Positions 16,586 to 24,020 of a stretch of DNA of 41,028 bases are shown piece by piece. The notes under the pieces were generated by a model. The model made no database searches and was not told the DNA's origin. It saw only the letters and a program-made list of their open reading frames with translations. The position numbers and the translations under genes are program-made. Source of the stretch: an uncultured Bacteroidales bacterium (lineage in GTDB: Bacteria; Bacteroidota; Bacteroidia; Bacteroidales; UBA932); NCBI GenBank assembly GCA_946187975.1, contig CAMHTE010000007.1, positions 1-41,028 on the forward strand, written 5' to 3'. Every line of letters begins with the position of its first letter. Position 1 is the first letter of the stretch.

Positions 16586-17599
16586 CTACCTGATGCAGCG
16601 GACCGAGGCGCAGAAGTCCTTGCGGCTCTGCTCACCCGTAAACACTGTGGGCTGGCCGGCTATCAGATAACGCGTGTAAGCCGTATTGGCATCCTTGGCG
16701 TCGGCAGTCCAGAACACTGCATAATCCAGCATGCCGTAGAAACGGTACTCCCCTTCCTCAACTATCGCATAACCACACGGTATCGCGGAGAATCCACTCA
16801 GGTTGCTGATCTTGACCTCCCTTGTATAGGGCCACATTTCGATTCCGTTGAAAGTGACATTCTCCATCATGGCACCGGCATCTCCCCCGGCAGCGGCTAT
16901 CATTGCATCGAATTCAGCACCGGAGGGAAGCCTCCATCCGGCCGGACATGCACTAAGGGCCTCGTCGTATGTATAATAATTGCCGAATATGGCTGCTACC
17001 GCAGGTTCATTCAGATAGGGCACTCCACCGTAAGCCATGTTCTGTAACAGAAGATCCACCCCGCCCACATTTTGTATGTAATAATACTCCCACAAATTAC
17101 GGCCGTCAACAAGATAGACTCCGGGCTGTATTTTGGTGTATCCGCGGAGAGAACCGGTATTGGGTTTGGGATCAACTATCGTAAACGCCCTGCTGACAAG
17201 TTTGCTGTAATAATCCGTGGCGGCTGCGGTCACCTTCATGGTAAAATCGCCAAGCGTATCGCGGTAGACCGTAAAATCGAAAGCCTTTCCAACGGTGTAG
17301 GGATCGGTTTCCTTGCGCAGGGTATCGGACTTATCCGTGAACGGATCGGTCCAAATCCATGTCAGGAGGGTGTCAGTTTTATCGGTGGCATCGGCACTGT
17401 TGGGCCTGTAGACACCCGTAGGTGAAATATGGATTACCTGTCCGTACTGAACGTAAGCCGGGAAATCGTACGCGAGCGTACCACCCAGATACATCTTGGT
17501 ATCGGTATCGTCGTCGTCGTCTTTTTTACAGGAAACGGCGGCCGCGAAAATGGCAAGGCCCGCCAGCAGGAAATATTTGGAGATTCTAGTTTTGATCAT
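16586..17599 (-). CDS. surface lipoprotein with FISUMP-type (Fibrobacter succinogenes major paralogous) domain
   Basis: Lipobox AAAVSC followed by KKDDDDD; C-terminal region with Y-N-Y-YTYDEALSACPAGWRLPSGAEFDAMI. Confidence 0.75.
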   Translation of the reverse strand: MIKTRISKYFLLAGLAIFAAAVSCKKDDDDDTDTKMYLGGTLAYDFPAYVQYGQVIHISPTGVYRPNSADATDKTDTLLTWIWTDPFTDKSDTLRKETDPYTVGKAFDFTVYRDTLGDFTMKVTAAATDYYSKLVSRAFTIVDPKPNTGSLRGYTKIQPGVYLVDGRNLWEYYYIQNVGGVDLLLQNMAYGGVPYLNEPAVAAIFGNYYTYDEALSACPAGWRLPSGAEFDAMIAAAGGDAGAMMENVTFNGIEMWPYTREVKISNLSGFSAIPCGYAIVEEGEYRFYGMLDYAVFWTADAKDANTAYTRYLIAGQPTVFTGEQSRKDFCASVRCIR

Positions 17600-17630: not shown

Positions 17631-19256
17631 TTACAATTTTAGTTCTGCATCGGCATAGGATGTAGCTGCCGGGCGATGGGTTATGCAGATGACAGTTTTG
17701 CGTCCGCGGTAGCGTCCGCTGATATTCTCCAGCACTTCCAGTTCGGTGGCTGCATCGAGTGCGGAAGTAGCCTCGTCCAGGACCAGTATGCCTCCCGGAC
17801 GGAGCAGTGCGCGGGCGATGGCTATACGCTGGGCCTGACCTTCGCTGAGACCGGCTCCGACCTCTGCGCAGTCGGTTTCCAGACCTGCGGGGAGATCGAA
17901 CACGAATCCTGCCGCGGCTGTAACCAGAGCCTCCTTCATTTCGTCCTCTGACGCGTCGGGATTGGCCAGCAGCAGGTTTGCCTTTATGGTCCCGCTCATC
18001 AGGCTATTACCCTGGGGAACGTACATGAAATTGCAGCGGGTGTCGGCGGAAGATTCCGTAGCCGGATCGTACAATTCCACGCTGCCGGCCGTAGGACGGA
18101 GCATGGCCATCATAACCTTTATGAGCGTACTCTTTCCGCTGCCGGTACTGCCGGTAATGGCGGTCACGCTGCCGGGAGCGAAATCGTAGTCAAGCCCTTC
18201 GAAAACAGGCTTTGCGGCATCCGGATAACTGAACGACAGTCCTTTGAGACGTACTCCGGGAGCTCCGGGGAGAAGTATGGCTCCCTTCTCTTCCTCCTGC
18301 TCCATCTCTTCCAGTTCCAGCAACCTCTCTTCCGAAGAAAGTGCCCTGATAAAGGCCGGAATCTGACGTGTGATATCCGCCACCGGCCTCTGCACCTGCC
18401 CCACAAGCTGGAGGAAGGCTGTCATGAGGCCGAAGGTGACGCTTCCGTCGCGAAGGCCGAGCACACTCCAGATAAAGGCTGCGGCATAACCGGCCACGAA
18501 ACCGGCCTGAAGGAAAGAACGGGATACCGCAGCGTAGTTGAGCCGCGTCACCGTAAGGTCGCGGACATCATCCTGCATATCGTCGAGATCGTCGAGGACC
18601 TCGTCGGTGCCTCCCATGGTACGCACCAGCATGCGGTGCTGGAGATTCTCCTGAATATGAGCCTGAACCCGGCTGTCTCCCCGGCGGATGTCGGTGGTCA
18701 GAGCCCTCATCTTACGGAAGAAAAGACGGCTCCCGAGCACTGCGGCCGGCATTATGAATATCAGAATCCAGGCAAGGTCGGAAGAAAGGGCGAAAAGGAA
18801 GATGGTAGCTGCAATCAACTGGCAGATGGTCACCACCACCTGCGGCAGCGACACCACCGTAAAGTCCACTACGACGCGTATGTCCTCTTCGAGACGGTTT
18901 ACCGTGTCGCCGCTGTGGAAACGTTCCTTGCCGGTCCACACGCTGCGCATTACCCTCCCGAAAACCTTCGAACGGGTATCGTTCCTGGCGGTCACCTCAA
19001 GCCAGCCTTCCCAATAACGGGCGCCCACGCGGACGGCAATCTGCGCCAGAAGTATGGAAGCGAACAGGATGATCCCCCGCATCAGGCCTCCGGCATCCTG
19101 TCCGGTGGCTATATCTACCAGGCGCTTGCTGTACCACACGAAGAGGAGGGCAAGCGCGACTTCCGCGAGTCCTAACAACACGCTCACACCCACCTTGAAG
19201 CGTAAGGGCTTCAGGGTGCGGAGCAATGCACGGAAGCAATCGCGGAATGGTTTCAT
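17631..19256 (-). CDS. ABC transporter, fused permease and ATP-binding protein
   Basis: TM domain then Walker A GSTGSGKST, signature LSEGQAQRIAIARALLR, Walker B ILVLDEATSALD, H-loop CITHR. No N-terminal C39 peptidase domain seen. Confidence 0.95.
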   Translation of the reverse strand: MKPFRDCFRALLRTLKPLRFKVGVSVLLGLAEVALALLFVWYSKRLVDIATGQDAGGLMRGIILFASILLAQIAVRVGARYWEGWLEVTARNDTRSKVFGRVMRSVWTGKERFHSGDTVNRLEEDIRVVVDFTVVSLPQVVVTICQLIAATIFLFALSSDLAWILIFIMPAAVLGSRLFFRKMRALTTDIRRGDSRVQAHIQENLQHRMLVRTMGGTDEVLDDLDDMQDDVRDLTVTRLNYAAVSRSFLQAGFVAGYAAAFIWSVLGLRDGSVTFGLMTAFLQLVGQVQRPVADITRQIPAFIRALSSEERLLELEEMEQEEEKGAILLPGAPGVRLKGLSFSYPDAAKPVFEGLDYDFAPGSVTAITGSTGSGKSTLIKVMMAMLRPTAGSVELYDPATESSADTRCNFMYVPQGNSLMSGTIKANLLLANPDASEDEMKEALVTAAAGFVFDLPAGLETDCAEVGAGLSEGQAQRIAIARALLRPGGILVLDEATSALDAATELEVLENISGRYRGRKTVICITHRPAATSYADAELKL

Positions 19257-19257
19257 G

Positions 19258-19530
19258 TCAGGCTTCCACTATGCCGACCTCAATCCACTTGTCGGCTATG
19301 GCGGCGGCGTCCTTTGCCGCAACTTCTTCCTCAACCTCGTACTCTGCGAGCAGGAGGTCGGTGAGGTCCTTCACGCTGAACGATTCCTTGTCGGAAACCG
19401 CCTTCCAGAGGTAGGCCGCCGACTCGTTGAGCGATATCATCTTGTTGAAGTTCACCTGCGCAAGGCCTTCACCCACGATGATGAACTCTCCGCAAATGCT
19501 GCGAAGTTTGAATCCCTGTTTAACTTTCAT
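19258..19530 (-). CDS. PqqD-family (RRE-like) peptide chaperone protein
   Basis: 90 aa: MKVKQGFKLRSICGEFIIVGEGLAQVNFNKMISLNESAAYLWKAVSDKESFSVKDLTDLLLAEYEVEEEVAAKDAAAIADKWIEVGIVEA, a typical PqqD fold pattern. Confidence 0.87.
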   Translation of the reverse strand: MKVKQGFKLRSICGEFIIVGEGLAQVNFNKMISLNESAAYLWKAVSDKESFSVKDLTDLLLAEYEVEEEVAAKDAAAIADKWIEVGIVEA

Positions 19531-19987
19531 ACCCTTTTCTGTAAAGATACCTTCTGGTAATACCTAAAATAATCCTGCGGATTAACCGCGGTGTCGCGTG
19601 CCACTGGCGCCACTTTTTGAGGGCTTCCGGGCTGAGGGGATCGGAAACCTTTCCTGAGGCGTGCTGGATTCCCACCACGGTACCCTGTATATCCGACAGC
19701 CGGCAGCGTTCCACTCCGGCGAGGTTGCCGTCGCCCTTGAGCCGTACGTCTTCCCCGTTAACACCGAGCACGCGGTGAAGGACGTAGCGCCCGTCGAATA
19801 TCTCGGCAAGGACTATGTCGCCCCTGTTTATGGAGCTGCGCTTCTCCAGCACTACGCTGTCGGATCCTCCCCTGATGAAGGGAATCATGCTGACGCCCTT
19901 GGTCATGATAATCACCTGCCTTCCCTCGGCAAGGAGTTGCGAGACCTCGCCGAGCATTATCTCATTCGGAAGAATAATCTTGTTCAT
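19520..19987 (-). CDS. S24/S26-family peptidase-like protein (signal-peptidase fold)
   Basis: GVSMIPFIRGG (catalytic Ser box), GDIVLAEIFDGRYVLHRVLGVNGEDVRLKGDGN (His-type box D and GD box). Confidence 0.85.
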   Translation of the reverse strand: MNKIILPNEIMLGEVSQLLAEGRQVIIMTKGVSMIPFIRGGSDSVVLEKRSSINRGDIVLAEIFDGRYVLHRVLGVNGEDVRLKGDGNLAGVERCRLSDIQGTVVGIQHASGKVSDPLSPEALKKWRQWHATPRLIRRIILGITRRYLYRKGYES

Positions 19988-20877
19988 TTTATCAATTCAG
20001 CCGAGCATACCCTGGCGGCATCGGCGTCTGGACGGCAGTCGAGAACGTAGCAGGGAGTACGGGAAATAATCTTTTCAAAAGTGGCGTTAAGACCGTCGGC
20101 CATAGCAGTGTCGGACTTGAACCCGGAACTGGACGAGTACAGCAGGGCGTACGATTCCAGCACCTTGAGCCTGGTGATGACGTTGTCCGGACTGCGGCGT
20201 ATCTGTACGAAAGCGCCGGCAGGATAATGTTCGTTGCGGTAGCAGGGGGTCTTGCCGCTCCAGGGGCTGCCGTAAACCTCCACCGTTCCGTCGTCAAGCA
20301 CGCGGACTATGGGATTGTCGTCGTTCAGGAGTCGGCTGCCGGGGATATTCTCGAGCCACATGCGGCTGTGGGTGCTCTTGCCAGTGCCGCTCTTCGCGAG
20401 CCACAGGAAAGCGCGTCCGCCGTTCACTATCACGGATGCATGCATCTCGAGGGTTCCAAGGCAGGCCGTACGGAAGGCGAACAGCAGCATGAGCGCGTTG
20501 TTAAGGCCGAAAAGGCCTTCCCCCGGCCTGAGTATCTGAAGGCGTCCGCGGGAGAAGGAGGAATCGGAATGCATGCGTGCGCAGACCGGCTTTCCCTTGC
20601 AGACGGCCATGTCGCAGACCCAGGTATCATCAGTCTTGGAGAGTTCGATTACGGGCTCGCCTTCCTCTTCGTATCCTCCATAAACCTTTTCCGCTTGGAT
20701 ATCCGGCAGGGACCCGACTATTTCCACGGTAAAAAGCGGCTCTCCGGCGTCATCGCCAACCTCGAACGGCCCGTACTGGGCCATCTTCCCCGCGAGGGGA
20801 TGGTCTTCGGGCATTATGACGCTGAAAAGGTGGCCTGCCACCCGGAATGTCCTGGTCATCGGTCTCTCTTTTTTCAA
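19984..20877 (-). CDS. HPr kinase/PEPCK-like P-loop protein
   Basis: MHASVIVNGGRAFLWLAKSGTGKSTHSRMWLENIPGSRLLNDDNPIVRV...GSPWSGKT, the HprK-like signature seen in RiPP-associated kinases. Confidence 0.83.
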   Translation of the reverse strand: MKKERPMTRTFRVAGHLFSVIMPEDHPLAGKMAQYGPFEVGDDAGEPLFTVEIVGSLPDIQAEKVYGGYEEEGEPVIELSKTDDTWVCDMAVCKGKPVCARMHSDSSFSRGRLQILRPGEGLFGLNNALMLLFAFRTACLGTLEMHASVIVNGGRAFLWLAKSGTGKSTHSRMWLENIPGSRLLNDDNPIVRVLDDGTVEVYGSPWSGKTPCYRNEHYPAGAFVQIRRSPDNVITRLKVLESYALLYSSSSGFKSDTAMADGLNATFEKIISRTPCYVLDCRPDADAARVCSAELIK

Positions 20878-20882
20878 TTATG

Positions 20883-20921
20883 CAAAGATAGTAAATTTTA
20901 TCGCTTTATTTGTTATATTTG
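20883..20921. promoter_or_regulatory. divergent Bacteroidota-type -7 elements for the HPrK-like operon (-) and the DUF4290 gene (+)
   Basis: CAAAGATA (20883-20890; - strand TATCTTTG) and TATATTTG (20914-20921), both matching TAnnTTTG. Confidence 0.55.
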
Positions 20922-20943: not shown

Positions 20944-21606
20944 ATGACCGATACCGAATTCAACCTGGACTATAATACGGGGCGCGAGCGGCTCGCCATG
21001 CCCGAATACGGACGCAATGTGCTCAAGATGGTGGAACAGCTCCGCGAGATACCCGACCGCGACAAGCGCAGCGAGCAGGCACGCGCCGTCATCAAGACCA
21101 TGGAGATACTCAATCCCTCCGTCCGCAGTTTCGAAAACTGGGAGCATAAGCTGTGGGACCATCTCTACATGATCGCCGGTTTCGACCTCGACATCGATTC
21201 CCCGTATCCCTGCCCTGCAAAGGAAGAATTCGAGACGTCCCCGGTTCCCCTCCCGATGAAGGGCACCCGCATCCGCGCCACCCACTACGGCCGCAATATC
21301 GAAAAGATCATAGACCTGCTCTGCGAGGAGCCCGACGGCGAGGTCAAGACCGCGATGATACGCTCGCTCGCCATATACATGCGCCAGCAGTATCTTATCT
21401 GGAACAAAGACAGTGTTGCCGACGAGACCATCTTCGCCGACATCGAAAAACTCTCCGACTACAGGCTGAAGGTTCCCGCCGACATCTCCCTTGGCAAGGT
21501 ATCGCAGAACGCCAGCTTCTCCCGCCCTACCCTGGGCATCAACGTGGGCCAGCAGCCCGGCAAAAAGAACCGCAAGTGGAATAACCGCAAGGGAGGCAAG
21601 AGATGA
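20944..21606 (+). CDS. DUF4290 domain-containing protein
   Basis: DFNL-type N-terminus: FNLDYNTGRERLAMPEYGRNVLKMVEQLREIPDRDKRSEQARAVIKTMEILNP...; characteristic Bacteroidota DUF4290 sequence. Confidence 0.88.
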   Translation: MTDTEFNLDYNTGRERLAMPEYGRNVLKMVEQLREIPDRDKRSEQARAVIKTMEILNPSVRSFENWEHKLWDHLYMIAGFDLDIDSPYPCPAKEEFETSPVPLPMKGTRIRATHYGRNIEKIIDLLCEEPDGEVKTAMIRSLAIYMRQQYLIWNKDSVADETIFADIEKLSDYRLKVPADISLGKVSQNASFSRPTLGINVGQQPGKKNRKWNNRKGGKR

Positions 21607-24020
21607 GAAGGTTCTTCGACGCACTGGCATTCTGGCGCAGGTGGGACGAGCGCGAGCGCAGCATAGCCGCATGGCTTACAGGCTTCGCGGTGGCGGCTCT
21701 CGGACTGTTCGTCCTGATAGCATCGGTATCGTATCTTTTCCACTGGCAGCAGGACATGAGCCTCCTGAGCGATCCCTCGATGATGAATGGTGACGTAGCC
21801 GTGGGCAACGCCGCCGGCAAGATGGGATACAAGACCGGATACCTCCTTGTCTGCGAACTCTTCGGCCTGGGCAGTTTCGCCCTCCCGCTGATACTCTTTG
21901 CAATAAGCGCAAAGCTGATGAGCGGCAAATGGCGCTACTCGCTGATTAAAACTACCCTCATAGCAGCATCCGGCGCCCTTGTGGCGGCTATTCTCCTTGC
22001 CTTCGTAGGCAATCTCTTCGGTGAAAACCTGCAATATGCCTTCGGAGGAGGACTCGGAGGAGAATGCGGCAGCCGCATCGTAGCCTGGGGCGGCAACCTT
22101 TTCGGACCCGTCATCACCGGATTGCTCGTAATCCTGCTCGTCGGCCTTTGGCTCTTCCTCAGCAGCAGGCGTTTCATCGACTGGGCGTATGAACTGCTCC
22201 ATCGCGACGGCGACAGGCAGGAAGAGGAAGAGACCGTGGATGATTTCGAAGACACAGACGATGCCGGAGCGGAGGAAAAAGAGGGAGAGGAAGAAGAAGA
22301 GGAGGAAGAAGATAATGATGCCGGGGAAGAAGCCCCGGAGGAGAAGGAAGAGACCGAAGCAGCTGACGCAGAACCCGCCAAACCAGGCGAGGAGGGGCTG
22401 GAGGTTATCACAGACGAGAACAACACCCTCGACGTGGACCACTATGAAGAACTCCCTCCCATCGACAATAGGCTCGATCCGCCGGAAGGACTCCCCTCCT
22501 TCAAGTTCCCTTCGATCGACCTGCTCAAATCCTATGCATCCGACAGGCGTCAGGTTTCGATGGACGAGCTCCAGCGCAACAACAATAAGATCCGGGTCAC
22601 CCTCAGGAACTATCGCATCGAGGTTACCGACGTAAAGGCCCAGGTAGGGCCCACTGTCACCCTCTACAAGCTTACCCTGGCTCCCGGAGTGCGTATCCAG
22701 GAAGTCAAGCGCCTCCAGGACGACATCGCCCTTGCCCTCAACGCAAGGGGCGTCAGGGTCGTTACGCTGCAGGACTCCGTAGGTATAGAGGTAGCTAACG
22801 ACTACTCCTCCATAGTGCCCCTGAAGAGCCTGCTTAACAGCGAGGCCTTCCGCGAGAGCAAATACGAACTCCCCGTAGCGATAGGTTACACCATAACCCA
22901 GCACGTGAAGGTATTCGACCTCGCAGAAGCTCCGCACCTGCTGATTGCCGGTGCCACCAAGCAGGGTAAGTCCGTGGGACTCAACGTCATTATAGGATCG
23001 CTGCTGTACAGCAAGCATCCTTCTGAACTCAAGTTCGTATTCATCGATCCCAAGATGGTGGAATTCTCGGCCTACGGCAAACTGCTCAAGCATTACCTTG
23101 CCGTGCTTCCCACCGCGGGCGATGAGGAAGAAGAGCGCAACAAGGCCATAGTCAAGAACGCGAAGGACGCCGACAAGGTTCTCAAGAGCCTCTGCGTGGA
23201 GATGGACCAGCGCTACGAACTGCTCAGCAAGGCGGGTTGCAACAAAGTGACCCTGTACAACGAGCGCTTTAAGGCTCGCAAGCTCAATCCCAAGAACGGG
23301 CACCGCTACCTGCCTTATCTGGTTACCGTCGTTGACGAATACGCCGACCTTACAATGACTCTCGGCGCCAGCCCCGAAGTAAGGGCTTCGTCCAAGAGCA
23401 TTACCAACTCCATCATACGCCTTGCCCAGAAGGGCCGTGCGGCTGGAATCCACGTTATACTCGCGACCCAGCGTCCTTCGGTGGACGTCATCTCGGGTAT
23501 CATCAAGAGTAACTTCCCCATGCGTATCGCCTTCCGTGTGGCTTCCAGGACCGACTCCATGACCATACTCGACTCCACCGGAGCCGAAACGCTCATAGGC
23601 AAGGGCGACATGCTGCTGTCCGGAGGTATAGAGAACGAGCGCATCCAGTGCGGCTTCGTGAGCGGCGACGAGATCGACGACCTCACCTCCTTCATCGGCA
23701 AGCAGCAGGGGTACAACAAGAGCTACAACACCCCTTATTACCTGCCTGAGGTTCAGGAGGAAGGTTCGGGGTCCGGATCCGGCGGCGAACTTGGCGAACT
23801 CGACGAACGCTTCGAGGAAGCCGCCAAGATGGTGGTAACCACCAAGAGAGGCTCCACTTCCGATCTGCAAAGGCGTCTGGGCATGGGTTACGCCAAGGCC
23901 GGACGCGTAATGGACCAGCTGGAAAAAGCCGGCATTGTGGGCCCCCAGGAAGGAAGCAAGCCCCGCGCCGTGCTTGTCGACACGCTTGAAGAACTGCAAA
24001 CCATACTAGATACCCTGTAA
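21603..24020 (+). CDS. ftsK: FtsK/SpoIIIE-family DNA translocase
   Basis: N-terminal TM helices, acidic linker, Walker A GATKQGKSVG, ARLAQKGRAAGIHVILATQRPSVDVISG, C-terminal gamma winged helix (TSDLQRRLGMGYAKAGRVMDQLEKAGIVGP). Confidence 0.96.
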   Translation: MRRFFDALAFWRRWDERERSIAAWLTGFAVAALGLFVLIASVSYLFHWQQDMSLLSDPSMMNGDVAVGNAAGKMGYKTGYLLVCELFGLGSFALPLILFAISAKLMSGKWRYSLIKTTLIAASGALVAAILLAFVGNLFGENLQYAFGGGLGGECGSRIVAWGGNLFGPVITGLLVILLVGLWLFLSSRRFIDWAYELLHRDGDRQEEEETVDDFEDTDDAGAEEKEGEEEEEEEEDNDAGEEAPEEKEETEAADAEPAKPGEEGLEVITDENNTLDVDHYEELPPIDNRLDPPEGLPSFKFPSIDLLKSYASDRRQVSMDELQRNNNKIRVTLRNYRIEVTDVKAQVGPTVTLYKLTLAPGVRIQEVKRLQDDIALALNARGVRVVTLQDSVGIEVANDYSSIVPLKSLLNSEAFRESKYELPVAIGYTITQHVKVFDLAEAPHLLIAGATKQGKSVGLNVIIGSLLYSKHPSELKFVFIDPKMVEFSAYGKLLKHYLAVLPTAGDEEEERNKAIVKNAKDADKVLKSLCVEMDQRYELLSKAGCNKVTLYNERFKARKLNPKNGHRYLPYLVTVVDEYADLTMTLGASPEVRASSKSITNSIIRLAQKGRAAGIHVILATQRPSVDVISGIIKSNFPMRIAFRVASRTDSMTILDSTGAETLIGKGDMLLSGGIENERIQCGFVSGDEIDDLTSFIGKQQGYNKSYNTPYYLPEVQEEGSGSGSGGELGELDERFEEAAKMVVTTKRGSTSDLQRRLGMGYAKAGRVMDQLEKAGIVGPQEGSKPRAVLVDTLEELQTILDTL

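Follow-up and report, generated by a model that had tools for sequence, protein, structure and literature searches.

Linear polyphosphorylated peptides (LPPs) were described by Popov et al. (Nat Commun 2026, PMC13381572) and stated to be restricted to Bacillota. Their gene set comprises the SipW-like peptidase LppS, which needs the RRE LppB (RRE, recognition element of ribosomally synthesised and post-translationally modified peptides, RiPPs), the HprK-like kinase LppK, which adds several phosphates to Ser3 of the core, an MsbA-like exporter and a nucleoside triphosphate (NTP) transferase, with one to three precursors of leader YxxPxVLxHQxIxFETxxS inside each cluster (PMC13381572). In LppB, Asp70 holds the leader Tyr and Asn33 the Pro kink; binding, phosphorylation and cleavage were demonstrated experimentally for a Paenibacillus system, and the biological role of the peptides was called unknown in the 2026 description (PMC13381572). 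In this work, we analysed a compact operon encoding an HPrK-like kinase, an S26-like protein, a PqqD-like protein and an ABC exporter, located in a 41,028-nucleotide stretch of contig CAMHTE010000007.1 from an uncultured Bacteroidales bacterium (the window, meaning this stretch at its full length; its contig is C7 of genome G000). We consider it likely that this operon acts in trans as a RiPP maturation and export cassette of the LPP kind, serving short precursors scattered through the genome. One machine serving many scattered precursors is familiar from the prochlorosins, in which a single maturation enzyme handles many precursors dispersed over the genome, conserved in their leader and divergent in their cores; there, however, it is LanM lanthipeptide chemistry in place of RRE, kinase and S26 peptidase, and lipoprotein pairing is absent.

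The four genes lie on the minus strand, with a 4 nt overlap between kinase and S26 genes, an 11 nt overlap between S26 and PqqD genes and a gap of 1 nt before the ABC gene, and all coordinates given by the sequence-only reading of this DNA were confirmed. Its gene assignments were borne out by profile searches for PqqD, ABC and, marginally, S26, and by AlphaFold folds for the kinase and the S26-like protein. The kinase passes no family cut-off in Pfam or NCBIfam, the best resemblance being HprK-related kinase A (E=3e-4), while its P-loop SGTGKSTHS and its LNDDNP and PWSGK motifs are kept among relatives and the AlphaFold model (predicted local distance difference test, pLDDT, 93) shows the PEPCK/HprK fold. 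The S26-like protein barely reaches PF00717 (23.5 against a cut-off of 23.3 bits) and is modelled with a LexA/signal-peptidase I fold (pLDDT 92). Its Ser33 and His71 are invariant in 26 sequences, the catalytic Lys is absent and no N-terminal membrane segment is apparent; from its residues, it has the Ser-His arrangement of SipW-type enzymes and is a putative peptidase. The earlier hint that this protein might be the leader protease finds support in the experimentally studied LppS of the Bacillota system (PMC13381572). The PqqD protein matches PF05402 above cut-off (E=7e-15), and in a search against the PDB its profile matched the lasso RRE TfuB1 (6jx3, E=1e-5). Asn35 and Asp74 are invariant among the PqqD proteins, with a spacing close to that of N33 and D70 in LppB. 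The exporter combines ABC_membrane (PF00664) and ABC_tran (PF00005), profile search found no C39 peptidase domain in it, and its nearest NCBIfam profiles, CydC, CydD and MsbA, are each matched below their cut-offs.

The arrangement is not a product of chance, since the order HPRK-S26-PQQD-ABC recurs with differing flanks in about twenty genomes of the window's genus, most of those whose flanks were read. Among the 37 genomes compared from this genus, Candidatus Cryptobacteroides (named relatives include it), 29 carry the kinase gene, and of 80 named Bacteroidales loci, many show the same order with varied flanks. Neighbour inspection showed that the genes flanking the window's own cassette are not conserved in relatives. 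Just one other gene recurs beside the cassettes, a PF14907 nucleotidyltransferase (16 loci); it is present in sister cassettes including L084, L089 and L091, while the window genome gave no PF14907 match above cut-off. The neighbourhood comparison proposed by the sequence-only reading showed the cassette recurring, with PF14907 nucleotidyltransferases and leader-bearing short open reading frames (ORFs) adjoining some relatives' cassettes. Loci of Paludibacteraceae and related groups show the alternative order S26-PQQD-HPRK, and in four of these (L125, L126, L131, L138) a SpoU/TrmH-type RNA methyltransferase-like protein follows and no ABC gene is adjacent. Separately, solitary PqqD genes were seen outside cassettes in G001 (L290 5972-6313) and G032 (C21:144958-145221), and in one frame of about 686 residues (L051 8595-10700, G013:C3) an HPRK-like domain is preceded by a TruB-like one (tRNA pseudouridine synthase), a possible fusion.

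No small precursor-like ORF was found in the window, and inside the operon there is no room for one. Short ORFs that share an N-terminal sequence, for example MKKMNKTYEAPVAEVIEMQMPVVVMSPAGTGNEMQEETEEP in L091, flank the cassettes of several relatives; a small-ORF regular expression applied beside cassettes gave mostly chance matches, and only ORFs with this common leader were retained. A profile of the leader, A3, detected multiple short frames in most cassette genomes and showed them to be scattered through the genomes of the genus. Outside the family it was convincing in one of 24 genomes, G054, the sole outgroup with a full cassette. The leader consensus is Y-E-[AST]-P-x-x-E-[VL]-[IVL]-E-[LVMI]-x-x-E-[GSQK]-x-[LIFV]-[CALM]-x-S with invariant Tyr and Pro, followed by a variable, acidic tail with a median of 18 residues and a net charge of -4. 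A Ser lies at +18 to +20 in 82 of 91 precursors, and 78 of the 91 have an aromatic residue within the last eight tail positions. Mean leader identity is 33% ungapped, core similarity is barely above that of shuffled sequences, and the precursors tested gave no significant NCBIfam or Pfam family match. TAnnTTTG, the Bacteroidetes -7 promoter consensus, occurs at most 120 nt upstream of 27% of precursors compared to 4% of random positions. The window genome holds at least nine precursors, none of them on the window contig (Table 1), although a plain DNA search for YxxP..E[VI] there gave no clear excess (six matches against four in a reversed control, one of the six real). Short YxxP-leader ORFs are thus found elsewhere in the window genome and track the cassette across the order, as expected from the earlier proposal of a precursor encoded elsewhere, and the search for short ORFs with RRE-type leaders that had been suggested with it has in this way been answered. 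The precursors of G143, with 16 matches, and of G312 (L260-L266, L271-L273) tend to share a recurring R...W-x-D/E ending, as in YRNSLWGDDE and SRGSDWIDFEQ, and mostly have no lipoprotein after them; they may represent a second class.

Co-occurrence of precursor and cassette was assessed with a refined leader profile over 294 genomes of the order, a confident match being a short frame with E<0.02. Of the 20 genomes that match HPRK strongly, 11 had confident precursors, as did 3 of the remaining 274 (Fisher p=2e-12); leaving out the window's genus together with G054, a seed genome, gave 8 of 17 against 3 of 274 (p=3e-9). With a column-reversed profile, two matches fell under the same E-value limit, both in genomes outside the HPRK group. 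Among the three precursor-bearing genomes without a strong HPRK match, G074 carries a PqqD gene of this type beside a 367-residue neighbour and an ABC gene.

Among the closest described systems besides LPP are the paeninodin-type phosphorylated lasso peptides, which combine an HprK-like kinase, a PqqD-like B1 protein binding [Y/W]xxP leaders and an ABC exporter, with a nucleotidyltransferase as in some relatives of our cassette. A decayed lasso cluster that has lost B2 protease and cyclase could explain why HPrK-like kinases, PqqD RREs and PF14907 nucleotidyltransferases are held in common with paeninodin-type clusters (PMC13381572). We nevertheless judge such decay very improbable, since the cassette ORFs are intact across many species, the cassette includes a peptidase of a type with demonstrated leader-removing activity, and the B2 family PF13471 is absent from 36 of 37 genus genomes including the window's, the sole carrier, G013, having neither cassette nor precursors. 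The non-lasso character proposed by the sequence-only reading, for which B2 genes near homologous loci would have been telling counter-evidence, is consistent with this distribution. No Asn-synthetase-like cyclase was found among the genes of the operon or those directly beside it, a genome-wide search not having been made. As the window genome is a metagenome-assembled genome (MAG) with 82% completeness, absence of a gene from it is not proof. The cores show no lasso features and the precursors are encoded in trans, unlike those of paeninodin-type systems, and in comparison with the lasso leader YxxPxL, Tyr and Pro are invariant here, while position +5 is A/I/T/C/V and not L, and a further E stands at +6. 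In G013, the B2 gene and an adjoining PF14907 match (C1:494.7-495.9 kb) may mark a genuine lasso locus.

Most precursors form two-gene units with a lipoprotein. A lipobox gene lies next downstream on the same strand for 66 of 90 precursors compared to 9% of background ORFs, a count not corrected for shared ancestry, where the 90 are those with enough downstream sequence and the regular expression missed several lipoproteins among the remainder. In the window genome, the leader profile found six precursors, and each of them is paired in this way, with gaps of about 5-20 nt. The downstream lipoproteins share an N-terminal domain, T[RK]T...W..GD.I.V...YP, and a profile built from 41 of them finds 65 of the 81 at E<0.01 compared to 4 of 734 background ORFs, performing better than a strict W..GD regular expression, which caught only 28 of the 81. 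A search of the window genome with this domain gave 22 places, and directly upstream of three of them lay new precursors, MIKKQIFYNSPEVSETELEAKTVLCLSNYIPEAESEDLEDLDSFDALW, MKNNHYIAPDVELAAVFCPGQICKASYGVVTEVFEDPEEITGITWDD and MEKEYQKPVAKVVEISLDRSILESSLTGLRGDYEYSTGWED, which had escaped the leader profile and are an independent confirmation of the pairing. The domain resembles that of the Mfa/FimA fimbrillin-like lipoproteins of Bacteroidales, with one paired lipoprotein matching PF13149 (Mfa_like_1, E=1.5e-7); unlike these, however, most pass no Pfam cut-off in the N-terminal domain and some carry BspA leucine-rich, GLUG or InlB-type repeats further on; a pilin role is putative. Tandem fimbrillin-like lipoprotein genes, with a precursor before one member, were also observed in the window genome at C27:8876-14666, C8:2699-8924 and C5:19111-22056.

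With only few nucleotides between the short ORFs and the lipoprotein starts, and with tails that vary freely, one could regard the short ORFs as regulatory upstream ORFs of the lipoprotein genes (attenuators or translational couplers), unrelated to the cassette. This is unlikely, since their conserved part is a YxxP peptide motif of the RRE type in which Tyr and Pro are invariant, their presence tracks the cassette across families also without the own genus (p=3e-9), about a quarter of them do not stand beside a lipoprotein, and frames of the same family also adjoin cassettes. A second alternative is that the cassette acts on full-length proteins, either the FISUMP-domain lipoprotein encoded 31 nt after the ABC gene in the window or the fimbrillin-like lipoproteins with which most precursors are paired, so that the short ORFs would be adaptors or chaperones and not products. 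Yet the RRE-type motif sits on the short peptide and not on the lipoprotein, the lipoproteins have their own Sec/signal peptidase II signals and need no ABC exporter, and FISUMP is not kept beside the cassette in relatives, which makes this explanation quite improbable. The FISUMP gene is missing or on the opposite strand in most relatives compared, and profile comparison showed that its product lacks the N-terminal domain common to the precursor-linked lipoproteins. On both observations we reject it as cassette substrate, and the earlier alternative of an action on the downstream lipoprotein is not supported.

Returning to maturation of scattered short precursors, we propose a model based on the biochemistry of LPP and lasso systems. 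The PqqD-type RRE would bind the YxxPxxEV leader of short precursors from scattered loci, and the HPrK-like kinase would phosphorylate the precursor, with the conserved Ser some 19 residues beyond the Tyr as the most probable site. Cutting off the leader just before this Ser would be the task of the S26-type Ser/His peptidase, and the ABC exporter would carry the linear acidic phosphopeptide into the periplasm. Judging from gene order, the fimbrillin-like lipoprotein, which forms a two-gene unit with most precursors, may be the cell-surface partner of the peptide. Features shared with LPP are the Ser-His SipW-type peptidase, the discrete RRE, the HprK-like kinase, the MsbA-like exporter (here below the equivalog cut-off), the lack of cyclase and B2 in the cluster, and short precursors with variable cores and a leader starting with YxxP, as well as a Ser near the cleavage site (Y+18 in LPP, corresponding to Ser3, and about Y+19 here). 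In contrast to LPP, the host is a member of Bacteroidales, the leader middle after YxxP differs, the precursors are dispersed, with none in the cluster, and mostly lipoprotein-paired, and the nucleotidyltransferase is missing from the window genome, though present in sister cassettes. By analogy, the cassette appears to work like LPP; we do not count it as an LPP member, because its precursors lie outside the cluster and the window genome has no NTP transferase. No Bacteroidota version of an LPP-type system was found in a literature search, from which subscription journals were mostly out of reach.

Several observations weigh against this model. The supporting biochemistry comes from other lineages. 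LppB (9x8z) was not among the PDB matches of the PqqD profile, which were only lasso RREs, and in profile comparison TfuB1 stands nearer to the RRE than does any LPP entry; the likeness to LPP is therefore one of gene content, and the two systems may or may not share descent. Nine of the 20 HPRK genomes have no confident precursor, G195 and G312 show precursor matches with neither HPRK nor PqqD detected, and G032, a member of the genus, has precursors and PqqD and no HPRK. Within the genus, where many genomes are incomplete MAGs, precursor presence follows HPRK presence only loosely. Some cassettes lack PqqD in place, with G001 and G030 carrying it elsewhere, and the adjacency counts, uncorrected for shared ancestry, may in part reflect it.

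Table 1. Features of the operon region in the window (window coordinates) and precursors elsewhere in the window genome (contig:coordinates, approximate).
Feature	Position	Strand	Basis
HPrK-like kinase, putative peptide kinase (LppK analogue)	19984..20859	-	P-loop, LNDDNP, PWSGK motifs; AlphaFold fold
S26/S24-fold Ser/His peptidase, putative leader peptidase (LppS analogue)	19520..19987	-	Ser33/His71; LexA/SPase I fold; PF00717
PqqD-type RRE, putative leader-binding protein	19258..19530	-	PF05402; TfuB1 match; Asn35/Asp74
ABC exporter (MsbA/CydCD-like), putative peptide exporter	17631..19256	-	PF00664 + PF00005
Bacteroidetes -7 promoter motif TATCTTTG of operon	20883..20890	-	read from sequence
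FISUMP-domain lipoprotein, downstream neighbour, probably outside system	16586..17599	-	Fib_succ_major E=5e-20
Precursor	C22:15300-15467	+	leader profile
Precursor	C23:7079-7225	+	leader profile
Precursor	C6:21531-21683	-	leader profile
Precursor	C3:27459-27608	-	leader profile
Precursor	C5:18850-18996	+	leader profile
Precursor	C8:2335-2499	+	leader profile
Precursors, one upstream of each lipoprotein at the positions given	C54:10691, C27:14346, C6:37176(-)		lipoprotein domain search

The longest kinase ORF spans 19984-20877, with an in-frame TTG at 20877. Since the part of the kinase conserved among relatives begins at the ATG at 20859 (MTRTFRVAGH), this ATG is probably the start and the TTG is not. 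The operon's promoter motif (Table 1) is a perfect match to TAnnTTTG just upstream of the kinase, in the gap before a divergent DUF4290 gene. An 846-residue open frame at 21459-23999 on the minus strand, antisense to an FtsK-like gene in GC-rich sequence, is almost certainly spurious.

We tentatively suggest, as a possibility we hold at somewhat less than even, a RiPP system new to the phylum, in which a central cassette matures a large dispersed repertoire of phosphopeptides, each acting with its own co-encoded fimbrillin-like surface lipoprotein, with a role in surface display or adhesion and not as antibiotic in gut Bacteroidales. Independently of this suggestion, the cassette extends to gut and rumen Bacteroidales a RiPP gene set so far described as confined to Bacillota, and cluster-based RiPP mining would miss such a system because its precursors lie outside the cluster. 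The pairing with fimbrillin-like lipoproteins offers a testable hint at the biological role of LPP-type peptides.

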